Positions 39,696 through 51,719 of a DNA stretch of 64,000 bases are shown piece by piece. Positions within the stretch are counted from its first letter, which is position 1. Each line of letters opens with the position of its first letter. The DNA lies in NCBI RefSeq assembly GCF_016887565.1, contig NZ_CP069396.1, forward strand, positions 2,507,001-2,571,000, read 5' to 3'. The translations under genes were made by a program, and so were the position numbers. The notes beneath the pieces are model-generated. The model saw only the letters and a program-made list of their open reading frames with translations. It made no database searches and was not told the DNA's origin. Origin of the DNA: Archangium violaceum (GTDB lineage Bacteria > Myxococcota > Myxococcia > Myxococcales > Myxococcaceae).

Positions 39696-40664
39696 ATGCC
39701 GATCGTTCTCATCGTTGCGGAGCAGCAGCCGGACGGGAACCTGCGCAAGGCGACCCTCAACGCCATTGGCGCGGGCAAGCAGCTCGCCGAGAAGGCGGGC
39801 GCGGAGCTGCACCTGGTGCTGCTCTCCAAGGATCCCTCCAAGGTCACCCAGGAGCTCGCGGGCCTGGGCGCCAAGGCGGTGCACACCGCCGCGGCCCCCG
39901 AGTTCGAGCACTACCTGGCCGAGACGTACGCCCCGGCCATCGCCGAGCTGGCCAGGTCCATTGGCGCCAACTACGTGGGCATGGCGTCCACCGCGCAGGG
40001 CAAGGATCTGCTGCCCCGCGTGGCCGCGCGCCTGCAGGCCGCCATGGCCACCGACGTCATGGGGTTCAACGGGAGTGGCGCGGACGTCACGTTCTCCCGG
40101 CCCATGTGGGCGGGCAACGTGTTCGCCGAGGTGAAGCTCACCACGCCGGTGAAGGTCTTCACCCTGCGCGCCACCGAGTTCCCCGCGGCCGCGGGTGGCC
40201 AGGGCGCCGCCGAGGTCAAGACCTTCTCCCCCAAGGTGGAGGCGGGCAAGACGAAGTTCGTCGACTTCAAGGAGGTCAAGAGCGCGCGGCCCGAGCTCAC
40301 CGAGGCGCGCGTGGTGGTGTCCGGCGGTCGCGGCACCAAGGGCGACTTCAAGGAGATCGAAGCGCTGGCCGACGAGCTGGGTGCCGCGGTGGGCGCCTCG
40401 CGCGCGGTGTGCGACGCCGGCTGGGTGCCCAATGACCTGCAGGTGGGCCAGACGGGCAAGGTGGTCGCCCCGCAGCTCTACATCGCCGCGGGCATCAGCG
40501 GTGCCATCCAGCACCTGGCGGGCATGAAGAGCTCCAAGACGATCGTCGCCATCAACAAGGACCCCGAGGCCCCCATCTTCCAGGTGGCGGACTACGGGCT
40601 GGTGGAGGACCTCTTCAAGGTGCTGCCCGCGCTGCGCGAGGCCATCCACAAGGCCAAGGGCTAG
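39696..40664 (+). CDS. etfA: electron transfer flavoprotein, alpha subunit
   Basis: A 322-residue FAD-binding subunit. It shows the N-terminal '[20 protein letters not shown]' domain shared with EtfB and the C-terminal FAD-binding signature: '[20 protein letters not shown]' through '[20 protein letters not shown]', '[20 protein letters not shown]' and '[15 protein letters not shown]'. It forms a gene trio with the upstream acyl-CoA dehydrogenase and etfB for fatty-acid or amino-acid derived acyl-CoA oxidation. Confidence 0.96.
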
Positions 40665-40739: not shown

Positions 40740-41306
40740 TCAGAGCTCGATGTCCTTCTCGTCTCCCTCGGGCTCCTGTTCCTCGGGCGGCGAGTCGCCG
40801 GGCTCCTCGTCCTCGGGCAGGGGCTCGACGTCCGGGAGCGAGTCGGGGAAGGGCACGGTGTCGGGTGGAGGCGCGGGTTCTCCGCCGAGCAGGTCGATGG
40901 TCGGGCGTCCCGGCACCTCCACCTGAAGCGTGGTGAACTTCCACTCGTCCCCGTTCTTGTAGGCCTCGACGAGGAGGGTGCCGTCGGCCTTGGGGCCCTT
41001 GAGGGGCACGGAGAAGTTGGCCGAGCCCTGGTCGTTCTGGGACTGGATGGAGCCCTGGAGCATCATCCCCGATTCGATGGGCTCGCCGAGCGTCTGGCGC
41101 ACCTCGGGAGACTGCTTCGCCTGGGTGAGCGCCTCGACGAAGACGCCAGTGCCTCGGAGGGCCTGGTAGGTGAAGCCGAAGACGAGGGCGCCGAGGCAGC
41201 CGCAGGACAGCAGCAGCCCCAGGCACCCCGTGGGCACCACCCACTTCCAGTTGCGGCCCCACCAGCCCTGCCGGGGCGCCATCTCACTTTCTGGCATCGT
41301 GTTCAT
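40740..41306 (-). CDS. membrane-anchored Coa1/Tim21-like protein
   Basis: A 188-residue protein with a Trp-rich N-terminus ('APRQGWWGRNWKWVVPTGC') and one transmembrane helix (about 20-45). The extracytoplasmic part resembles Coa1-type cytochrome-oxidase assembly domains: 'LGEPIESGMMLQGSI', 'GSANFSVPLKGPKADGTLLV' and 'EWKFTTLQVEV'. The C-terminal 45 residues are acidic and Pro-rich. No oxidase genes are nearby, so the assignment rests on the weak motif match alone. Starts at 41306 or 41297 are both possible. Confidence 0.55.
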   Translation of the reverse strand: MNTMPESEMAPRQGWWGRNWKWVVPTGCLGLLLSCGCLGALVFGFTYQALRGTGVFVEALTQAKQSPEVRQTLGEPIESGMMLQGSIQSQNDQGSANFSVPLKGPKADGTLLVEAYKNGDEWKFTTLQVEVPGRPTIDLLGGEPAPPPDTVPFPDSLPDVEPLPEDEEPGDSPPEEQEPEGDEKDIEL

Positions 41307-41488
41307 GGTTTCCCTGGTTCCTCCCGCCGCCTGCGAGGGTGGCGCGCCCCCGTCATAGCGGTTACCGCATGGTCGACAACAGGGCTTGCGGGCGAGCACG
41401 GTTCCTGGCCCGGGTATCGGGGAGGGGGTAGCATCCCACCCCGTTTCGCACGGGGCTGGGGGTCAAGGCCGGAGGAGGGAGGGCACAC

Positions 41489-41788
41489 ATGGAGGACGTG
41501 ATGAGTGTGGTGCCGAACCTCCACCCGGACGCGGGCGTGCAGCGGGTGGGAGACCGGATGCTGGCGGTGGGGCCGGACGACACCCTGCACACGTTCGAGG
41601 ACGAGGGCGGCGAGGTGTCCGAGGTGGCCGAGCGCATCCTGGAGCTGGTCGACGGACGGCGGACATTGGGCGACATCGTGGCGGCGCTGTGCGAGGAGTT
41701 CGAGGTGGAGCCCGAGGCGTGCCGTGAGGACACGGTCGCCTTCGTGAGGCTCCTGGTGGACAAGAAGGTGCTGGTGCTCGGGCTGTGA
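41489..41788 (+). CDS. PqqD-like peptide modification chaperone
   Basis: A 99-residue protein of the PqqD/RRE fold. The pattern is 'PNLHPDAGVQRVGDRMLAVG', then 'DTLHTFEDEGGEVSEVAERI' and 'LELVDGRRTLGDIVAALCEE' and a C-terminal 'VAFVRLLVDKKVLVL', matching the PqqD layout of a beta-hairpin, 'ldG.rt..ei' helix pair and hydrophobic tail. In other systems such domains bind leader peptides of ribosomal natural products and deliver them to tailoring enzymes. It is first in a row of five co-directional genes that includes a candidate precursor and an HPr-kinase-like enzyme. Starts at 41489 (behind GGAGGAGGGAGGG) or 41501 are both possible. Confidence 0.75.
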   Translation: MEDVMSVVPNLHPDAGVQRVGDRMLAVGPDDTLHTFEDEGGEVSEVAERILELVDGRRTLGDIVAALCEEFEVEPEACREDTVAFVRLLVDKKVLVLGL

Positions 41789-41829
41789 AGCCCGGTGTGG
41801 GGCCGGTTCCAGTACGTCGAGAGGCAGTC

Positions 41830-44800
41830 ATGCGTCGAACGGGATGGCAGTGGCTTCTGGCGGTGTGTGCGCTGTGGACGGCGGGGTGTACGTGCGGCAA
41901 GCCGCCGGTGGAGTCCGAGCTGACGGTGGCCTTCGAGCGGCCGGTGGATGGTCAACGGCTGGCGCTGGGGGATGACGCGGACGTGGGCGCCGCGGGCTTC
42001 CAGTACGACGTGGTGGCGGTGGCGGCGGACTCGGCCGGGCGCGCGGTGACGCTGTCACAGGCGAAGCTGGAGGTGCTGTCGGCGGGCGAGTCGGTGTGGC
42101 GGGAGGGGCCGGCGGCGACCATCGAGGGCCAGCGGGTGCGCTTCCCCACGGTGACGCTGCCGGGGCGCACCAACGTGCTGCGGGTGACGGTGGAGGAGCA
42201 GGGCTCGAAGCGCACGGCCTCGCACGACCAGAGCGTGACGGTGGGCGCCGAGACGCGGACCCTGGACATCGTCATCCCCGCCGAGGGGCAGGTGCTGCGC
42301 GAGGTGGATGACGCGGACCCGCTGCTGCCGGGCTACCAGGTGGATTTCGAGCTGTGGGGCACGGGACTGCGGGGGGCCAGTGGCCTCATCTCGTGCGCGG
42401 GGGTGTGCGGCATCGCGCCAGTGCCCTTCACGGTGGGCGACAATGGCAAGGCCGTGGCGCGGGTGACGCTCTCCGAGCCGGTGCGCGAGGCGCAGCCCTC
42501 GCAGTGCGTGGCGGTGGTGAAGCTGCCCGGTGGGGACGTGACGTCTCCGGCGCGCGGCATGACGTTGGACACCGAGGGACCGCGGCTGGCCATCAGCTCG
42601 CCCGTGTCCGCGGTGGCCACCCGCACCTTCAAGGTGGAGGCGGTGGTGCGCTCGGTGGAGGATGGTGCCACGGCCACGCTGACGCGAGAGGGAGCCGCGG
42701 CGCTGACGACCACGGTCCGCGCGGGGCAGGCCCTCTTCCCGGAGGTCACCGTTCCCGGTGACGGCCGGCACGACTTCCAGCTCAGCGTCACGGACTTGGG
42801 TGGCAACGTGACCGGCAAGCCCCTCTCCGTCGTGGTGGCGAGCACCGCGCCCGCCCCCGTGCTGAGGGTGCCGGCCACCGTCGACACCTTCGTCGCCGGT
42901 CAGCCCGCCCAGGCCGAGGCGGTGGTGAAGGTGGACGACCAGCCGGTGGGCACGGAGGTGGAGCTGTGGACGACGGTGTCGGGCCGGCTCGGCCAGCCGC
43001 AGCGTGCGCGGACGGTGGATGGCAGCGGGGAGGGCCGGGTGGCGCGCTTCACCCTGTCGCTCGCCGAGGGCGCCAACACGGTGAAGGCCTGCGTGCGCAA
43101 CGCGGCCGGCATCCAGGTGTGCACGCTCGCCACGACGCAGGTGCGCACGGGCCGTCCCAACTGCCGCATCGTCGAGCCCTCGCCGGGCGACGTGCTGCCC
43201 GCGGGCGGCAAGCCGGTGGCGGTGCGGGTGGAGGCGCTCGGTAACAACGGACCGGTGAGTCTCTCCGCGCAGCGCACCGGGGCCTCGGAGAATGCCTCGG
43301 GGACGGCGTCGGGTGGTGCGGCCTCCCTGTCCGTGAACCTGTCCGGGGACGGCGCCTGGAGTCTGGTGGCCTCGTGCGCCGGGGGCGGCGTCAGCCAGGC
43401 CGTCACCGTGTCCCGTGACACCACGCCTCCCGCGCTCGCCGTCACCGTGCGCGACGCACCCGGGGGCCGCGTCGAGCCTTCCTTCATCGACACCTCTTCG
43501 CTGCCCGGCACCCAGGTGGTGCTCGACGCGGTGACGGAGCCCTTCGCGCAGGTGCTCGTCCAGGGCTGCGGGTTGCAGGGCACCCTCCTGGCGAGCGCGG
43601 ACGAGCAGGGTCGTGCCTCGCTTCGCGACGTCGGTGTTCCCACCAGCGGCACCTGCTCCTTCTCCGCGCGAGCGGTGGACCTCGCTGGCAACGAGTCCTC
43701 GGTGTCCGTGCCCGTCGTCTCGGCCTTCGTGGCCTCTTCCCTGAAGTTCGAATCGCCGGATCCCTCCCAGACGTTGGGAACGGCCGATGGCACGCCGGTG
43801 GGCGAGGGCAACCTCCTGGTGGCGCTGAAGCTGGGCTTCTCCGCTGGGGCCCAGGGACAGCTGAAGCTCTACCGTGACACCACCGAGGTGGGTGGGGTCC
43901 CCGTGGAGGTGGTGGACACGGGGAAGACCTTGTCGGGGGTGCAGCTCGCCGATGGCGTGAACGTGCTTCGCGCGGTGCTGGTGAACAACGCGGGCGCCGG
44001 GGCGTGCGCGAGCGCGCTGTACACCGTGGACACCACGCCGGGCGACATCGTCCTCAGCGCGCCGGGTGCCTCCAGCAACTACAACCTGCAGTCGGATCGC
44101 GACCCGCTCACTCCCGGCATCCAGCACCCCCTGAGCTACACGCTCAATGGTGCCTCCGCGACGGCCACGGTGGACGTGTGCACCAGTGTCGCGCTCACCA
44201 CGGCGGCGGCGCCGTGCCGGGACGGGAGCGGCTGGTTCACCCTGGCGGCGGGGATTCCGGCCTACACCAACCTGTTCTCCTATCCGGACGGAAGGTACTC
44301 GCTGAAGGTGGTGCTCGACGACGGTGGCACCGTCCGTGAGTCCGCTCCCGTGTCGCTGGTGGTGGACAGCGTGCGCCCGGAGGTGACCGCGCTCGAGCTC
44401 GTGGGCGATGCCAACGGGGACCGGATGGTGAATGCGACCGAGTGGCCCTCGGGTGCCCCGGTCCTGCGCGTGTCCACCACCGGGCTGGCGGCCGGTCTGC
44501 CGATCCAGGTCCGCGACGCCACGAACAACACCCTCTATGGCAATGCCGTGTCCGCGGGCGCGGTGACCGACGTGACGCTCGGTTCGTTGCCGCCCCTCGA
44601 GGAGGCGGATTACTCGCTGGTGGTGGTCGTCACGGACGCCGCGGGCAACGCGAACCGGACGGTGGCCGCCGTGCCGCCCAATCCGTTGGACCCGGTCAAT
44701 GCCGCGGCACTGATGTCCTTCCGGCTGGATCGGGTGGTGCCCCAGCTCAACCCCACCTCACCGGGCAGAGCCACGCTCGGACCGGCGGATGACGCGGCTC

Positions 44801-47685
44801 CGGCCACGGCGGGCTTCCAGCTCCGGGCCAGCGCTCAGACAAGCGCCGATGTCGGGCCCGGTGGTGTCTCCCTGCGCCTGGACCCCGCGGGCACCGTGGT
44901 GACGAAGACCCCGGAGGGGCGCTCGGTGTCCCACGACTTCACGGTGGAGGCGACGGGCACCCGCAGCTACACGCTCGTCTTCACCGCCCAGGACAAGGCG
45001 GGCAACCTGGGCGCGCCGGTGAGCGTGCCGGTGACGGTGGACCTGGAGGCCCCGGTGCTCACGCTGGTCAGTCCTACCTCCGGCTCCACCCTGAGCTCTC
45101 CGCTGGCGACGGTGCGGGTGGAGGTCGAGGGCGGCGAGGGGCTCATCGTGAGTGTCTTCTCCGTACGAGGAGGCTCGGAGGAACTGGTGGGCTCCTTCCC
45201 GGTGGTCAACGGAGTGGCGCAGGGCACCGTGAACCTTCCCGAAGGCACGCAGGACGTGACGGTGAGGACCGCGGACGCCGCGGGCAACAGCGTCTCGGCG
45301 AGTGCGCAAGGGGTGACGGTGCCGCACGTCGGCTGTGACGTCTCGCTCACCTCTCCCGCGGGGACTCCGGTCACCTTCAACCAGACGGATGATGGGAACG
45401 CGGGCCAGGCGGGCCTGCAGTACACGCTGCGCGGGCGCACCACCCGCTGCGCGGGCCAGACCGTGTGGCTCTACAAGGAGGGCACCACGCTGGGCTCCAC
45501 GCTGGCGGATCCGGGCACCGGGGACTTCTCCTTCGACGTGTCGCTGCCCGACGGCGAGCAGTCCCGGCTGACGGTGGAGATGGTCGACTCGGCGTCGAGC
45601 CGGACGAGCGACTTCGTCGACTACACGGTGGACGTCACCCCGCCCGCCTTCAGCACCGTCACTCCCGCCCAGAAGACGTTGACCTTCGTGTCCGCCTCCA
45701 ACGTGAACCTGCCGGGCTCCGGCTACGTGCAGGACCTCACGCCGGGCGGTGACGCGGAAGCGGAGTTCCGGGCGACGGTGACGGGCGCCACCGGGGGCCG
45801 CCTGCGCATCCTCTACAAGGGCACCACGGAGCTCGCGTCGTTGTCGATCTCCCAGAGCCCCGAGTCGCTGACGATTCCCCTCGTCCTGCCGCACGGCACC
45901 AACGGGCCGCTGGAACTGAGGCTGCGCGATACGGCCCTCAACGAGACGGTGTACGCCATCGACGTCACCGTGGACGTTCGGCCTCCGGCCCAGGTGGCCT
46001 TCACCGCGAACATCCCCGCGGGTGGGGCACGCAAGGCCTGGGTGGACCTGACGTGGCCTCGGAGCGGTGATGATGACGCCACGGGCACGCCGGTGGGTTA
46101 CGACCTGCGCTGGACCACCGACACGCTGCTGCCGACGGGCATCCCGGACGAGGCCACCTATTACAGCTCCCAGGTGCGGCGGGAGACCGGCGCGTTGCTG
46201 CCCGCGCAGACCACGTCCTACCGGCTCACCCTGCCTCCGCTGGCGAAGTACTTCATCGAGGTCCGGGCCCTCGATGAGGTGGGCAACGTCTCGCCCTTCC
46301 GGACCATCCCGGTCTTCGACAATGCTCCGAACAAGGTCCTCACCAACCCCACGGCGAGGTCCGGGTTCTTCGGCCTCGTCATGGCCAGCGGTGACCTGAA
46401 CGGCGATGGCAAGGATGAGCTGGTGACGGGGGATTCCAGGGCCAGCTATGTCGTGGGCAGCACGACCACCACGAACGTGGGCGCGGTCCACATCTACTCC
46501 GATGCCCTCTCCGGCAACGAGACGCCCCTGACGCTGTGGCCTTCCACACCCACCGTGGCGACCCAGACCTTCGGGACCGAGGTGGCGGTCGGCAACGTGG
46601 GCGACGCCTCCGGGGAAGGGCGGCCGGATCTGCTGGTGGGCTCGCCGAACTGGACCAGCACGCGAGGCCGGGCCTTCCTCTACTTCGGCCGCACGGGCCA
46701 GCCGGTGGATCCGACTCCCATCGAGTTCCGGGGCCAGGCCAGCGGGACGAGCTTTGGCGCCGCCGCCCGCATCATCGCGGACCTCAACGGGGATGGATTG
46801 TCCGAGGTGCTCCTCAGCGCCGACGGGGAGAACGGTGGGAAGGGCAGGGTCTATCTGTTCTTCGGGCGCACCCGGGCGAACTGGGTGGCGGCCGCGACCG
46901 GAAACGAGAGCGGCGTGGCCTTCGTGCCCGTGGACAAGGCGGACCGCATCATCGAAGGGGATACGAGCCTCACGGTGAACACCAACACCTACTTCGGCCG
47001 GCGCCGGGGGCAGGCGAACGTGGGAGACCTCGATGGCGATGGCAAGCCGGAGCTCTCGATCTCCGCGCCCTACGACAAGATCAACACCCTCTACATCTAT
47101 CCCGGGAGCGTCCTGATGGCCCGCGGCGGCGCGACCGTGGCGGAGCGGACGCTGACGGTCGCGGACGTGCTCCAGCGCCTCTCCTACGGACCGGTCAGCA
47201 CGGGCGGTCTGAATGGCTTCGGCGTGGACGTGGTGGCGCGGGTGAACTTCGCGAGTGGACCCGCCAGGGACCTGGTCGTCAGCCAGCCCGAGTCGAACAC
47301 CCTTCGCGTCTTCCCGGACGGTGGGGCGTCGGGGTTCGTCCAGCCCGAGTGGTCCATCACCGTGGCGAATGACCCCAGCATCACGGTCAAGCGCTTCTTT
47401 GGCTACACGCTGGCCTCGGCGGACATCAACCAGGATGGGTTGCCGGACCTCGTGACCGGCGAATCCATGACCACCAGCGCCTCGGCCTGGATCCTCTACA
47501 ACCGGGGGGGCACCGGGGCTCCGTTCGATCCCGTGGCGGGTGAAGGTGTCGCACAGTCCCGCTTCAAGGGAGTCAAGGCACTCGGGGCCGGTGTTGTGAC
47601 AGGAGACTTCAACGGGGATGGTGTGCCGGACGTGGCGGCGGGCGATCCCTTTGACACCCCGGGTCGGATTACCGTGTGGTATTGA
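41830..47685 (+). CDS. giant Ig-domain / FG-GAP repeat lipoprotein
   Basis: A 1951-residue predicted lipoprotein or secreted protein (signal segment 1-20 ending 'LWTAGC'). About ten or more Ig-like beta domains are marked by recurring junctions such as 'VDTTPG', 'VDSVRPE', 'VDLEAP', 'VDVTPP' and 'VDVRPP'. A fibronectin III-like domain lies about 1395-1500 ('YFIEVRALDEVGNVSPF'). The last 440 residues are FG-GAP/integrin-type repeats with calcium loops: 'GDLNGDGKDELVTGD', 'ADLNGDGLSEVLLS', 'GDLDGDGKPELSISAP', 'ADINQDGLPDLVTGE' and 'GDFNGDGVPDVAAGDP'. Start 41830 is preferred over a GTG at 41785 since it gives the export signal. It is 41 bases after the PqqD-like gene and 12 before the small peptide gene. 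Likely a surface adhesion or display protein. Confidence 0.8.
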   Translation: MRRTGWQWLLAVCALWTAGCTCGKPPVESELTVAFERPVDGQRLALGDDADVGAAGFQYDVVAVAADSAGRAVTLSQAKLEVLSAGESVWREGPAATIEGQRVRFPTVTLPGRTNVLRVTVEEQGSKRTASHDQSVTVGAETRTLDIVIPAEGQVLREVDDADPLLPGYQVDFELWGTGLRGASGLISCAGVCGIAPVPFTVGDNGKAVARVTLSEPVREAQPSQCVAVVKLPGGDVTSPARGMTLDTEGPRLAISSPVSAVATRTFKVEAVVRSVEDGATATLTREGAAALTTTVRAGQALFPEVTVPGDGRHDFQLSVTDLGGNVTGKPLSVVVASTAPAPVLRVPATVDTFVAGQPAQAEAVVKVDDQPVGTEVELWTTVSGRLGQPQRARTVDGSGEGRVARFTLSLAEGANTVKACVRNAAGIQVCTLATTQVRTGRPNCRIVEPSPGDVLPAGGKPVAVRVEALGNNGPVSLSAQRTGASENASGTASGGAASLSVNLSGDGAWSLVASCAGGGVSQAVTVSRDTTPPALAVTVRDAPGGRVEPSFIDTSSLPGTQVVLDAVTEPFAQVLVQGCGLQGTLLASADEQGRASLRDVGVPTSGTCSFSARAVDLAGNESSVSVPVVSAFVASSLKFESPDPSQTLGTADGTPVGEGNLLVALKLGFSAGAQGQLKLYRDTTEVGGVPVEVVDTGKTLSGVQLADGVNVLRAVLVNNAGAGACASALYTVDTTPGDIVLSAPGASSNYNLQSDRDPLTPGIQHPLSYTLNGASATATVDVCTSVALTTAAAPCRDGSGWFTLAAGIPAYTNLFSYPDGRYSLKVVLDDGGTVRESAPVSLVVDSVRPEVTALELVGDANGDRMVNATEWPSGAPVLRVSTTGLAAGLPIQVRDATNNTLYGNAVSAGAVTDVTLGSLPPLEEADYSLVVVVTDAAGNANRTVAAVPPNPLDPVNAAALMSFRLDRVVPQLNPTSPGRATLGPADDAAPATAGFQLRASAQTSADVGPGGVSLRLDPAGTVVTKTPEGRSVSHDFTVEATGTRSYTLVFTAQDKAGNLGAPVSVPVTVDLEAPVLTLVSPTSGSTLSSPLATVRVEVEGGEGLIVSVFSVRGGSEELVGSFPVVNGVAQGTVNLPEGTQDVTVRTADAAGNSVSASAQGVTVPHVGCDVSLTSPAGTPVTFNQTDDGNAGQAGLQYTLRGRTTRCAGQTVWLYKEGTTLGSTLADPGTGDFSFDVSLPDGEQSRLTVEMVDSASSRTSDFVDYTVDVTPPAFSTVTPAQKTLTFVSASNVNLPGSGYVQDLTPGGDAEAEFRATVTGATGGRLRILYKGTTELASLSISQSPESLTIPLVLPHGTNGPLELRLRDTALNETVYAIDVTVDVRPPAQVAFTANIPAGGARKAWVDLTWPRSGDDDATGTPVGYDLRWTTDTLLPTGIPDEATYYSSQVRRETGALLPAQTTSYRLTLPPLAKYFIEVRALDEVGNVSPFRTIPVFDNAPNKVLTNPTARSGFFGLVMASGDLNGDGKDELVTGDSRASYVVGSTTTTNVGAVHIYSDALSGNETPLTLWPSTPTVATQTFGTEVAVGNVGDASGEGRPDLLVGSPNWTSTRGRAFLYFGRTGQPVDPTPIEFRGQASGTSFGAAARIIADLNGDGLSEVLLSADGENGGKGRVYLFFGRTRANWVAAATGNESGVAFVPVDKADRIIEGDTSLTVNTNTYFGRRRGQANVGDLDGDGKPELSISAPYDKINTLYIYPGSVLMARGGATVAERTLTVADVLQRLSYGPVSTGGLNGFGVDVVARVNFASGPARDLVVSQPESNTLRVFPDGGASGFVQPEWSITVANDPSITVKRFFGYTLASADINQDGLPDLVTGESMTTSASAWILYNRGGTGAPFDPVAGEGVAQSRFKGVKALGAGVVTGDFNGDGVPDVAAGDPFDTPGRITVWY

Positions 47686-47697
47686 GAGACCTCGTCC

Positions 47698-47838
47698 ATG
47701 CGGCCGGAACCGAAGCAGCCACTTCCCAAGAAGCCCTATCGTCCTCCCCGGGTGAGGTCCGAGCGCATCATCGTGCCGGACCTGTTCCAGCCGACGAACT
47801 GCGACCCCTTCGGTGACCCGCGCCCCGAGTGCCTGTAG
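47698..47838 (+). CDS. 46-residue candidate RiPP precursor peptide
   Basis: A short gene between the FG-GAP lipoprotein (12-base gap) and the kinase gene (9-base gap). The product starts 'MRPEPKQPLPKKPYRPPRV', continues 'RSERIIVPDLFQPT' and ends 'NCDPFGDPRPECL'. The KKPYxxPxV-xSE element resembles the YxxPxL leader motif recognised by PqqD-like domains in lasso-peptide systems and in related small peptides. The C-terminal part, with two Cys (residues 38 and 45), Asn, Asp and Pro-Gly turns, would be the core. All three reading-frame neighbours support this being a real gene: tight spacing, common strand and a partner PqqD-like protein in the same operon. Modification and function are inferred. 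Confidence 0.65.
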   Translation: MRPEPKQPLPKKPYRPPRVRSERIIVPDLFQPTNCDPFGDPRPECL

Positions 47839-47847
47839 GTCCGGAGC

Positions 47848-48624
47848 ATGGCGCGGGTGTGTTTCGGCCGATGGGTGTGCGAGGTCGAGGACGCGCTCCT
47901 CGACGCGGCCCGCCCCCGGTGCGGTTACGAGCCCTTCCTCGTGGAGGAGGGGCGGCCACGGCTGAGGCTTTGGCGGCGGGCTGACCTGGGCGAGGGGGCC
48001 CGGCCCTTCCAGCCGGGACAGCCCTCGCTCGGCGCCGTTCAAGTGGAGGAGGAGGGGCTGGGGACGGATGCGCCCCTGGAGCTCCTCTCGGCGGAGCTCG
48101 CGCTGCGAGCGCTCTTCCAGCTCGCCATCCTGCGCCAGGGAGGTCTCTGCCTGCATGCCGCTGGCGTGGCCTTCGGTGAGGCGGCGGTGGTGGCCCTGGG
48201 TCCCAGTGGAGCGGGTAAGTCCACCCTCTCGCGGCTTTGCGTCCAATCGGGCCGGGCCGGGCTGCTCTCGGACGAGGTGGTGGCGCTGCTGCCGGACGGC
48301 CTCGTGTGCGGCAGTCCCTTCCGCTCGGAGCCGGACCTGCCGGCCTCGCGCGCCGAGGCTCGCCTGCACGCCTTCCTGTTGCTGGAGAAGGGGCCGGCCG
48401 AATCGTTGTCCCCGGTGCGCCCGGCGGCCCTGGTGGCGCCGCTGCTCGGACAGGTGTTCCAAGGGGAGGGAGTCACGGGGCTGAGCCTCGGAGCCGGGAC
48501 GCTGCCGAGGTTGGGTGGCCTGATGGCGCCGGCTCCGGGTTTCCGCCTGATGTTCCGCAAGGACCCGGCCGTGGCGGGCTTCCTTGACGAGTGGGTGCAT
48601 GGCCTCTCGCCGTCCCGAAGCTGA
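47848..48624 (+). CDS. HPr-kinase/phosphorylase-like protein (peptide kinase candidate)
   Basis: A 258-residue protein with a C-terminal P-loop domain of HPrK type: 'GGLCLHAAGVAFGEAAVVAL' leading into Walker A GPSGAGKST (118-126), and 'LLSDEVVALL' with Asp142-Glu143 as the Walker B-like acid pair; 'GSPF' follows. The N-terminal 90 residues replace the HprK regulatory domain with an unrecognised one. HprK phosphorylates a serine of HPr; relatives encoded with PqqD-like proteins phosphorylate or otherwise modify peptide substrates, e.g. lasso peptide kinases. No HPr gene is here, and the neighbour is a small peptide. The C-terminal ten residues overlap the next gene. Confidence 0.8.
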   Translation: MARVCFGRWVCEVEDALLDAARPRCGYEPFLVEEGRPRLRLWRRADLGEGARPFQPGQPSLGAVQVEEEGLGTDAPLELLSAELALRALFQLAILRQGGLCLHAAGVAFGEAAVVALGPSGAGKSTLSRLCVQSGRAGLLSDEVVALLPDGLVCGSPFRSEPDLPASRAEARLHAFLLLEKGPAESLSPVRPAALVAPLLGQVFQGEGVTGLSLGAGTLPRLGGLMAPAPGFRLMFRKDPAVAGFLDEWVHGLSPSRS

Positions 48625-49570
48625 GTGGGTGGCCTTCCTCGAGGCGAGCTCCCCGGGGACGCGCCTCTGGGTGCGTGGGGCGGGGCGGAGCATGTACCCG
48701 CTGCTGCGCGGTGGTGATGCCATCCAGGTGGAGCGCTGCTCGGATGTCTCCAGGATGCGGCCCGGGGACATCGCGCTCGTCCGGGTGAAGGAACGGGGAC
48801 TCGCGGCCCACGTGGTGTCCTCCGTGGCTCCGCTGAGTACGCGGTCCTTCCTCGGGCGCCTGGACGAGGGCCCCGTGCATTTGCTGGGACGGGTGGTCGC
48901 GGTACGACGCTTGGGGCTTCGCCTGCCGGTGGGGGGACGGCTCGCGCCGCTGTTGCTGATCGTCCACCGGGCGAGTGCTCGCGCGGCGGGCAGCCCTCAC
49001 CTTCGCCGGAGCGTCCAGGTGTTGCGGCGCATCACCTCTTCTCCGGCCACGCGCGAGATGCGGCGGCGGTGGCTCGGTCCCATCGAGGTGCGGCCCCTCG
49101 GCCCGGAGGACGCCGAGGCGCTGCTGCTCTACGCGGGGCATGCCCTGCGGGGGCCCACGGCTTTCCTGGGCGATGCGCTGCGGGAGCGCTGGTCCCTGGA
49201 GGACGGAGCGGTGGGAGCCTTCACCGCCCGAGGACGGATGGTGGGTTTCGCGGCTCGGGAAGGGGAGTGGTTGCGTTACCTCCACGTGACGGAGGAAGCG
49301 CGGCGGCTCGGAGTGGGAACGCGGCTGCTCGGGGTGCTGCTGGAAGGTGCCGCCTCCCGACGAAGTGTCCTGGTGCTGCGCGCGGCGGTGCGGGAAGAGG
49401 AGGTGGCCTGCCGGGAGTTCATGGCTGGCGCTGGCTTCCTCGAGGTGCCTGGAGGGCACGGGGCGGAGCGCCGGAGCCCGCCGTGGAGTCCATCCGGAGG
49501 TACCTGGCGGGAGCTCGTGCGCCCCCTGGGGGATGAAGCCACCCCCCCATTGCGTCGGCCCGAAGGGTAG
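48599..49570 (+). CDS. S24/S26 signal-peptidase-like domain fused to GNAT acetyltransferase
   Basis: A 323-residue fusion. Residues about 10-125 are S24/S26-like: 'GRSMYPLLRGGDAIQVER' with candidate catalytic Ser31, 'MRPGDIALVRVKERGLAAHVV' with His71 where many family members have Lys or Arg (a Ser/His dyad as in SipW-type signal peptidases), and 'LLGRVVAV'. The linker is basic ('SPHLRRSVQVLRRITSS'). Residues about 163-310 are a GNAT acetyltransferase, with motif A 'LRYLHVTEEARRLGVGTRLL' (RRLGVG binds acetyl-CoA) and 'CREFMAGAGFLEV'. No transmembrane anchor is evident. An in-frame GTG at 48584 is an alternative; overlap with the kinase gene is 26 bases. A role in leader removal and acetylation of the neighbouring peptide is inference. 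Confidence 0.75.
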   Translation: MASRRPEAEWVAFLEASSPGTRLWVRGAGRSMYPLLRGGDAIQVERCSDVSRMRPGDIALVRVKERGLAAHVVSSVAPLSTRSFLGRLDEGPVHLLGRVVAVRRLGLRLPVGGRLAPLLLIVHRASARAAGSPHLRRSVQVLRRITSSPATREMRRRWLGPIEVRPLGPEDAEALLLYAGHALRGPTAFLGDALRERWSLEDGAVGAFTARGRMVGFAAREGEWLRYLHVTEEARRLGVGTRLLGVLLEGAASRRSVLVLRAAVREEEVACREFMAGAGFLEVPGGHGAERRSPPWSPSGGTWRELVRPLGDEATPPLRRPEG

Positions 49571-49601
49571 GCCAAAAGCACGGGGCATCCTTCCTCCTTC
49601 A

Positions 49602-49616
49602 TGAGAACGATTCTCG
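49602..49616 (+). promoter_or_regulatory. Fur-like palindrome upstream of the second DMT transporter
   Basis: TGAGAACGATTCTCG is an inverted repeat (GAGAA/TTCTC, 3-base centre) matching the 7-1-7 Fur consensus at about 10 of 14 positions. It lies four bases before the GTG of the transporter gene and would block its transcription or translation. It could instead be part of a -10 region or chance. Confidence 0.35.
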
Positions 49617-49620
49617 CCCC

Positions 49621-50550
49621 GTGAGCAGCCCCTCTTCCTCTCCGACGAACGACACCTCCCGCTTCCGGGCGGACGGGGCCCTGCTCCTCATCACCGCTTT
49701 CTGGGGCACCACCTTCGTGGTGGTGAAGGGAGCGCTCGGCCATGGGGATCCGTACTCCTTCCTCACGCTGCGCTTCACGCTCGGTGCGCTGGCGCTCACG
49801 GCTGTCGCCCGGCGCCAGATGCTCGTCCCCCAGACGCTGCGCCGGGGGCTGTTGCTGGGGGTGTTCCTCTTCCTCGGCTTCGTGCTGCAGACGGTGGGGC
49901 TGGTGTCCACCACGCCCTCGCGCTCGGCCTTCATCACCGGGCTGTACGTGGTCTTCGTCCCGCTGCTGGGACTGGCCCTCTTCCGGAGGATGCCGCGCGT
50001 CACCTCGTGGGTGGGCGTGGTGCTGGCGGCGGTGGGCCTGCGCTATCTCACCGGCGCGGACGTGGGCGAGGGGGGGTTGTCCTCGGGTGACTGGCTGACG
50101 CTGGGCTGCGCGGTGGCCTACGCCCTCCACATCCTCCTCACCGAGCGCTACGCGCCGAAGTCGGGAGTGGTGCCGCTCGTGGCCGTGCAGTTGTGGGTGG
50201 TGGCCGTGCTGTCCGCGCTCTGCCTGCCCTTCACCGAGACACGGGTGGAGTGGGCGCCCATCTTCATCGTGGCGGTGGCCTTCTGTGGCCTCATCGCCAG
50301 CGCGATGGCCCTGTGCGTGCAGACGTGGGCGCAGGCGCGCACCACCGCCGTGCGCGTGGCGCTCATCTGCTCCATGGAGCCCGTCTTCACGGCGGTGTAC
50401 TCGGTGGGGCTCGGCTACGAGATGCTCGGCGTGCGCGAGTGGGTGGGCGGTGGCCTCATCGTGTCGGGCGTGCTGGTGGCCGAGCTGGGAGGCCATCTGC
50501 TCGGCCGCCTGCGCGCGCGCGGGGCCGCCGAGCAGCTCCCAGACGTGTAG
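49621..50550 (+). CDS. EamA/DMT-family transporter
   Basis: A 309-residue membrane protein with about ten helices in two EamA repeats: 'ALLLITAFWGTTFVVVKGAL' at the N-terminus and 'LICSMEPVFTAVYSVGLGYE' followed by 'GGGLIVSGVLVAELGG' in the second repeat. Start is GTG. Sequence differs clearly from the DMT transporter at 17119. It follows the peptide-modification locus by 50 bases and might export its product, but the Fur-like site in the gap suggests separate regulation. Substrate unknown. Confidence 0.88.
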   Translation: MSSPSSSPTNDTSRFRADGALLLITAFWGTTFVVVKGALGHGDPYSFLTLRFTLGALALTAVARRQMLVPQTLRRGLLLGVFLFLGFVLQTVGLVSTTPSRSAFITGLYVVFVPLLGLALFRRMPRVTSWVGVVLAAVGLRYLTGADVGEGGLSSGDWLTLGCAVAYALHILLTERYAPKSGVVPLVAVQLWVVAVLSALCLPFTETRVEWAPIFIVAVAFCGLIASAMALCVQTWAQARTTAVRVALICSMEPVFTAVYSVGLGYEMLGVREWVGGGLIVSGVLVAELGGHLLGRLRARGAAEQLPDV

Positions 50551-51626: not shown

Positions 51627-51640
51627 GCCTTCGAAAAGAC

Positions 51641-51674
51641 GACCGGGGACACGGCGCGAGCCGTGTCCCCGGTC
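51641..51674. terminator. 15-bp perfect hairpin between convergent genes
   Basis: GACCGGGGACACGGC (51641-51655) pairs completely with GCCGTGTCCCCGGTC (51660-51674) across the tetraloop GCGA. It follows the exonuclease stop by 14 bases and faces the convergent DUF4382 gene, so it can serve both. No U-tract. Confidence 0.65.
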
Positions 51675-51719
51675 GGGAGTCCCACCTGAAGGGGGGTAAA
51701 CAGGGGGACGCGTCCTGGA

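Follow-up and report, generated by a model that had tools for sequence, protein, structure and literature searches.

A conserved myxobacterial gene set with a giant FG-GAP lipoprotein appears to make a small processed peptide

What might be made by a gene set that joins a peptide-binding protein, a giant lipoprotein, a very short peptide, a kinase-like enzyme and a peptidase fused to an acetyltransferase? Five such genes lie side by side in a 64,000-nucleotide stretch of the Archangium violaceum chromosome (NZ_CP069396.1, positions 2,507,001 to 2,571,000; hereafter the window), in a genome of 13.2 Mb assembled as one contig. Comparison with related genomes shows what appears to be an old, conserved myxobacterial gene set that makes a small processed peptide, and this peptide is probably phosphorylated. 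The best explanation of the whole, which we consider likely, is a pathway for a ribosomally synthesised and post-translationally modified peptide (RiPP) that works like the pathway of the linear polyphosphorylated peptides (LPP) of Bacillota and acts together with a surface lipoprotein. The features, in window positions, are the following.

41489 to 41788, plus strand: P0001, PqqD-like protein of 99 amino acids, a discrete RiPP recognition element (RRE) by its PF05402 match
41830 to 47685, plus strand: giant lipoprotein of about 1951 amino acids from ATG 41830, with lipobox, Ig-like domains and C-terminal FG-GAP repeats
47698 to 47838, plus strand: P0003, precursor peptide of 46 amino acids, a frame conserved after the lipoprotein gene
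47794 to 47796, plus strand: codon of Thr33, candidate phospho-acceptor suggested by the Ser/Thr pattern and third residue of the core, provided that F30 is the last of the leader
47848 to 48624, plus strand: P0004, HprK-like P-loop kinase of 258 amino acids, called from invariant motifs and predicted fold
48599 to 49570, plus strand: P0005, predicted S26-type Ser-His-Asp peptidase (S31/H71/D89) fused to a GNAT domain, start ATG 48599, called from sequence and a model of the GNAT half

An initial annotation, made from the window alone, had described five co-directional genes, and all five frames were found on the plus strand at the positions and spacings it reported: 41 bases between the PqqD-like and lipoprotein genes (ATG 41830 being the likely start), 12 between lipoprotein and peptide, 9 between peptide and HprK-like gene, and an overlap of 26 bases between the HprK-like and S24/S26-GNAT genes (ATG 48599). 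Its assignments of the two first products held as well. P0001 scores 52.7 bits against PF05402, above the gathering cut-off of 23.4, and the lipoprotein scores 104.3 bits against FG-GAP and starts with MRRTGWQWLLAVCALWTAGC, in which the lipobox WTAGC places a Cys at residue 20.

Are these genes kept together in relatives, as the reading in the initial annotation requires? They are across the family and, more loosely, across the phylum. P0004 has matches in 81 of 96 family genomes, many of them weak and derived from a second system described below. We compared the neighbourhoods of the 36 best P0004 matches outside the window genome (L033-L068; loci, genomes, genera and families are coded L, G, g and f, and f1 includes the window). 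PqqD, lipoprotein, HprK and peptidase genes stood together in 23 of them (L033-L053, L066, L068), which goes beyond chance, always in the order of the window except in L050, where the peptidase precedes HprK. HprK lay elsewhere in 13 loci (L054-L065, L067), and in four of these (L060, L061, L063, L065) it shared an 18 kb stretch with PqqD and lipoprotein. With E<=0.001 as the limit, 41 of the 96 genomes have a PqqD match; 40 have one at E<1e-15. At the latter cut, which was chosen after the lists had been seen, both PqqD and HprK occur in 37 genomes, PqqD only in 3, HprK only in none and neither in 56; counted by genus the numbers are 16, 1, 0 and 9. In an HprK tree, used only for this point, the HprKs of unlinked loci form one clade (99/98), their nearest linked row being L068 (81/90, not starred); the linked f1 rows do not form one clade, and the second-system rows fall into two groups, four of these rows being poorly filled (19-38% of columns). 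The HprK genes away from PqqD in L054-L065 often lie near an exonuclease-like gene and, by reading of translations only, near PanD-like or YdjC-like genes.

Is the 46-residue frame a gene? A similar small frame directly 3' of the lipoprotein gene was present in 34 of the 35 f1 loci that reach this point, the window included, in agreement with its initial annotation as a gene. The purifying selection that was to be expected of a gene is seen in close pairs, where pN/pS was 0.19 overall and 0.30 in the leader and the core showed no amino-acid change (eight overlapping pairs, small counts). P0003 alone matches no Pfam or NCBIfam family, and a profile search of the window genome for more copies returned only this one (E=1.7e-14; next 0.58). 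Its leader comprises residues 1-30 with the motif Y14xxP17xV19, of a kind typical, by sequence, of RRE-bound precursors; residues 31-46, QPTNCDPFGDPRPECL, are the probable core, cleavage probably occurring after F30. Gapless alignment of 31 peptides on [YW]xxP (near-copies L035, L040, L042 and L043 omitted, the second-locus L153 included) gave Y/W and P at +3 in 31/31, a motif that partly reflects selection: leader and cysteine tail guided the choice of frames, made by eye among all three reading frames, and their presence in the counts is therefore partly selected too. Hydrophobic residues at +5 (30/31) and +16 (28/31), R/K at +6 (27/31) and S/T at +7 (29/31) complete the leader. Mean entropy rises from 1.48 bits at offsets 0-7 to 3.09 bits at offsets 17-27. 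The core, unchanged in the close pairs, is thus stable between the near species compared and hypervariable from one genus to another. Conserved leader, variable core and an RRE with modifying and processing enzymes in one operon are the usual marks of a RiPP locus, and all are present here, the operon being suggested by gene spacing.

The letters beyond +17 are variable, yet a Ser or Thr falls within +17 to +22 of the Y/W in all 31 peptides, exactly at +19 in 15. In the set of 28 distinct peptides (L033, L041 and L053 dropped), Ser/Thr occurs within the first six tail residues in 28/28, whereas 5000 shuffles gave 15.5 on average and 24 at most, the six-residue span having been fixed after inspection of the data. 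Cysteines beyond +10 are even in number in 30/31 peptides; if counting begins beyond +12, so that a cysteine in the L049 leader is not included, all 28 distinct peptides have an even number, with two in 11, four in 4, six in 12 and eight in 1. The six-cysteine peptides follow the order C-C-CC-C-C in 9 of 12 cases, as read by eye. Parity and order would also suit a small protein stabilised by disulfides, for which removal of the leader is all that is required, the kinase having another substrate or regulating cleavage and the product carrying no phosphate; genes for kinase and peptidase do lie elsewhere in g3 and g26 genomes. We regard such a protein as decidedly unlikely, given a Ser/Thr near the start of the tail in every one of the 31 peptides and the near-perfect co-occurrence of kinase and RRE. 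The thought that six-cysteine peptides might be secreted lipoproteins (LLAC, lipobox-like) was dropped, the hydrophobic stretch being missing by eye. The f6 peptides (L131, L132, L134) have 0-1 cysteine and a proline-rich RPPP-type tail, a separate core type; a radical SAM gene lies near them in L132 and L134.

How might leader and core be handled? Profile A3 matches the lasso RRE TbiB1 (5v1u) at E=2.3e-8 and also PqqD structures. Residue D81 of P0001 is Asp in 26/28 and Glu in 2/28 rows by eye, and lies opposite a Gln when aligned to the lasso-type chaperone 9x90. For the LPP system, Asp70 of the RRE LppB is reported to bind the leader Tyr, the tested paeninodin RRE having Gln at that place (PMC13381572), and D81 may be the equivalent of Asp70. 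P0004 scores far below the cut-offs of HprK_rel_A (TIGR04352; 25.6 bits, cut-off 200) and ScmC (NCBIfam; 14.3 bits, cut-off 125), and its profile finds mainly generic P-loop proteins among PDB sequences, HprK being matched only at E=0.024. All 22 rows keep H103, D142-E143 and the Walker A core (G118, S120, G123, K124) without change. The initial annotation as an HprK-like P-loop enzyme gains from the structure model (pLDDT 93.1), which matches PEPCK (Z 12.8, root-mean-square deviation (rmsd) 4.3, 235 residues) and for which Foldseek lists HprK/P structures at probability 0.94-1.00 with low TM-scores; a PEPCK/HprK-type fold is supported by this model.

P0005 had been called an S24/S26-GNAT fusion. 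It matches GNAT and S24 models, both below cut-offs, and S31, H71 and D89 are invariant in 19/19 rows, which fits a predicted S26-type Ser-His-Asp peptidase in the front half. The displayed rows of the structure comparisons (Foldseek, VIA) span the GNAT half only, so that the model backs this half and sequence the other. The best folds are Ard1/NatA/RimI N-alpha-acetyltransferases (Z 17-18, up to 18.2, rmsd 2.2, 140 residues), as would suit a domain that caps the new N-terminus after the fused peptidase has cut. The GNAT half is missing in L044 and shortened in others (L046, L047, L048, L050, L053), and thus looks dispensable.

Is the peptidase tied to the peptide? The relatives that have lost the peptide genes provide a natural experiment, for which the genes flanking the set are needed.

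39696 to 40664, upstream: EtfA
within 40740 to 41399, opposite strand, upstream: Coa1-family gene
49621 to 50550, plus strand: EamA/DMT-type permease (PF00892), possible exporter and tentative part of the set

The genera g5 and g19, which we presume to be Myxococcus-like and Corallococcus-like, are without PqqD and a close HprK of this system, except G079. A full-length S26-GNAT gene was retained in 41 of their 42 genomes, G022 yielding only a piece. In seven g5/g19 neighbourhoods the order is EtfA, S26-GNAT, EamA with the PqqD-to-HprK block gone. A Coa1 gene occupies the gap in 3/3 loci tested, comparable to the Coa1 gene upstream of PqqD in the window, and a search of the seven loci for remnants of lost genes between EtfA and S26-GNAT gave none at E<0.1. 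For the other 34 genomes, from which only the S26-GNAT gene was retrieved, the missing PqqD suggests that lipoprotein and peptide were lost too. The triad S-H-D is intact in 24/24 loci with peptide genes (the Ser of L068 is present once its start is correctly placed). Among the 41 genomes without PqqD and HprK it is intact in 10 and altered in 31, with diverse replacements (Ser by C, G or D; His by Q or R). Since the rows are related, the Fisher p of 1e-8 for this contrast (table with 23 peptide loci, L068 not counted) indicates direction only. Decay of the triad where RRE and kinase genes are missing ties the active site of the peptidase to the peptide genes.

What of the giant lipoprotein? 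What is new in this locus is the place of its gene, after that of the RRE and before that of the precursor. The arrangement is repeated across Myxococcota, there often with a radical SAM gene nearby: besides f1 it is seen in f2, f5-f8, f11, f20, f24 and f31. A loose lipobox pattern lies near the start in 35 of 38 lipoprotein relatives. The partnership is near-constant, yet a role of the lipoprotein in the pathway is a prediction from this gene order. It might instead be an old passenger at a stable site, unrelated to the peptide, while RRE, precursor, kinase and peptidase still form a RiPP pathway. The whole site, with acyl-CoA dehydrogenase, EtfA and exonuclease, is syntenic in many genomes, so that adjacency alone is weak, and the authors who described the Bradymonas bsf lasso cluster judged the FG-GAP gene bordering it presumably not involved (PMC10368454). 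Other observations speak against a passenger. In g3 and g26, PqqD and lipoprotein stay paired, HprK and peptidase mostly falling outside the fetched stretch and EtfA not lying within ~2 kb upstream. The S26 protein was found on other contigs in 6/6 g3 genomes, g12, g25 and 6/7 g26 genomes, and PqqD is missing from all four of these S26 neighbourhoods that were read. In the seven g5/g19 neighbourhoods, moreover, the lipoprotein was lost along with PqqD, peptide and HprK. Together with the position of its gene between RRE and precursor across families, this makes a passenger unlikely in our view. In the openly licensed PMC literature we found no description of an FG-GAP protein paired with a RiPP, or with a lasso peptide in particular, save the Bradymonas paper (PMC10368454), and no joint treatment of FG-GAP, radical SAM and RiPP.

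How far does the set reach? At E<=1e-6, profile A3 has matches in 55 of 147 class genomes and 74 of 195 phylum genomes, some of which represent the second system. An FG-GAP-type giant adjoins PqqD in 11 of 20 order-level regions, and in 10 of the 11 a weak peptide-profile match (E 0.0004-0.16) lies at or shortly after the end of the giant, L127 being cut by a contig end. In 20 phylum-level regions an FG-GAP giant was confirmed by Pfam in six (L217, L218, L221, L225, L226, L232), other giants lying outside the Pfam scan, and a YxxP peptide accompanies five of the six, all save L217. EtfA lies within ~4 kb of PqqD in loci of f1, f2, f6, f11 and f15. A radical SAM gene stands by HprK in L130, L132, L137 and L218 according to Pfam, and in L134, L217, L221, L226 and L232 according to a CxxxCxxC motif alone. 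These relatives raise the thought that a radical SAM enzyme encoded elsewhere also cross-links the core in the window genome, giving a cross-linked peptide. We think this very improbable: the 23 linked f1 loci have HprK directly next to the peptidase gene with no room for another gene between the two, and no radical SAM gene was present among the scanned window neighbours (the rest of the genome was not searched, which applies to all statements on scanned neighbours). We read the locus as an old one whose Myxococcaceae form is without the radical SAM gene; the comparison is unrooted and the direction of change would be our inference.

The second system of the window genome lies at 6.53 Mb (L070; G000 C1 6529000-6548000). 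It joins S24 and PqqD to a giant whose repeats are PQQ/BamB-like, and further has HprK and a cysteine peptide of the YxxP type. Comparable runs of genes are seen in L071, L072, L138, L140, L141 and L144, and relatives such as L141 have an additional 168-aa protein of no assigned kind. L145 (2291-6700) encodes a 650-aa protein with HprK-profile match and CxxxCxxC motif, a possible HprK-radical SAM fusion, together with PqqD and an S24-GNAT fusion. In L153 (6406-6600, minus strand; G010) an unlinked S26 gene is accompanied, in the manner of the second system, by a 1010-aa gene and a second six-cysteine peptide with WAAP leader.

The EamA gene lies 3' of the gene set in 20 of the 21 loci L033-L053, at times more than 1 kb off, and also in f2 (L130) and f8 (L126); its presence may reflect mere synteny. 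A short inverted repeat, GAGAA-CGA-TTCTC (49600-49620), lies just 5' of it and is a possible operator. The exonuclease-like gene further downstream reaches 209.5 of 325 bits with the ligase-associated exonuclease model. A promoter scan of the locus gave no candidate, and one terminator-like site was found (51640-51675, minus strand), a count below that in shuffles. A plain toxin-antitoxin or bacteriocin locus was dropped, with no immunity or lysis gene evident among the scanned neighbours and a site that is stable across genera.

How would the parts work together? An LPP-like working is proposed because a discrete RRE, an HprK-like kinase and an SpI-like peptidase were shown by experiment in LPP (Bacillota; Popov et al., 2026): there LppB presents the leader, LppK phosphorylates Ser3 of the core, multiple phosphates on this residue being an LPP trait, and LppS (S29, H68, D93) cuts the leader (PMC13381572). 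In the pathway we favour, P0001 would bind the P0003 leader through YxxPxV, P0004 would phosphorylate the Ser/Thr just beyond the leader (Thr33 in the window) and the front half of P0005 would cut near the hydrophobic leader end (DLF), upon which the N-alpha-acetyltransferase-like GNAT domain may cap the new N-terminus. The cysteine-paired core would probably be exported, perhaps via the EamA permease, and the mature core would work at the cell surface together with the FG-GAP lipoprotein, whether as a ligand, as a displayed part or as a receptor partner. The phosphorylated and/or acetylated peptide suggested in the initial annotation is thus a prediction here too; the Ser/Thr pattern, cysteine parity, phylum-wide range, radical SAM relatives and likeness to LPP go beyond it.

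Several points weigh against this LPP-like pathway. Changing Ser3 to Thr abolished phosphorylation in LPP (PMC13381572), and the window peptide has Thr. The second acidic residue of P0004 is Glu in 22/22 rows. No ATP-binding cassette (ABC) exporter was found among the scanned neighbours, nor the radical SAM gene of distant relatives. Three genomes (G007, G008, G080) have PqqD only, each in 740-1260 contigs. P0005 may have another job, since 10 of the 41 genomes that have neither RRE nor kinase keep its triad intact and its GNAT half survives there. The peptide was not detectable in L083, where the lipoprotein frame looks broken, and was not found in L217 by the patterns used. Finally, the p-values overstate the case, the rows being related.

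What would such a pathway be for? Placed at a stable site in many Myxococcota, it may do something constitutive for the producer, and its interest lies in the coupling of a processed peptide with a giant lipoprotein of the surface. Should the lipoprotein bind the peptide, RiPPs would have a new use, the maturation of a cell-surface protein. A wider reading, tentative and on balance doubtful, is a phylum-wide, mostly vertically inherited RiPP class in which a giant beta-propeller lipoprotein of the outer surface, encoded between RRE and precursor, has the mature peptide as an integral partner, be it a displayed ligand or a prosthetic part, the peptide not being a diffusible antibiotic, and in which a radical SAM step was ancestral and Myxococcaceae swapped cross-linking for phosphorylation and disulfides, with a cysteine-knot-like order in some genera. 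Were it true, the parallel PQQ-repeat propeller system of the window genome would turn the combination of a propeller with a processed peptide into a general theme. In any case the peptides offer small cysteine-rich scaffolds for testing, and their leader can be recognised.

How does the locus compare with known systems? With LPP it shares a discrete RRE, a YxxPxV leader, a HprK-like kinase, a SpI/S26 Ser-His-Asp leader peptidase (predicted activities here), a variable C-terminus and no cyclase; the spacing from Y to Ser is 18 in the LPP motif, close to the +19 seen in 15 of 31 myxobacterial peptides. In contrast, the LPP nucleoside triphosphate (NTP) transferase and MsbA-like ABC exporter were not found among the scanned neighbours, an EamA permease being present instead, and the leader motif YxxPxVLxHQxIxFETxxS is matched in part only (YxxPxV and Ser/Thr spacing, not HQxIxFET). 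Cysteine-rich cores, the GNAT fusion, the giant FG-GAP lipoprotein and the occurrence in Myxococcota are peculiar to our locus, which also keeps the same chromosomal site in many genomes, whereas LPP is described as limited to Bacillota with patchy transfer (PMC13381572). With neither the transferase nor an exporter of MsbA type among the scanned neighbours, and with the leader motif matched in part only, the window locus is not a member of LPP.

The second system of the same genome is similar in holding S24, PqqD, a giant beta-propeller-type protein, a YxxP cysteine peptide and HprK in one run, and differs in its PQQ/BamB-like giant, a peptidase without GNAT and a separate leader family. SynChlorMet/GeoRSP cassettes share PqqD-like and HprK-like proteins with our locus and, with its relatives, also radical SAM/SPASM proteins. 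Our proteins score far below the curated cut-offs of these families (TIGR04248-04251, TIGR04302-04303) and of HprK_rel_A, and a radical SAM gene is missing near the window locus; no paper on SynChlorMet was found in the openly licensed PMC literature. Phosphorylated lasso peptides (paeninodin, bsf) share RRE, HprK-type kinase and a YxxP/WxxP leader. They differ in their B2 transglutaminase-like protease and macrolactam synthetase, which were not found among the scanned window neighbours; the initial annotation had likewise noted that lasso cyclase, transglutaminase-like protease, asparagine synthetase and nucleotidyltransferase are missing, as the scanned neighbours bear out. The bsf lasso cluster, like our locus, borders an FG-GAP gene (PMC10368454), and the present data suggest that this gene deserves to be re-examined.

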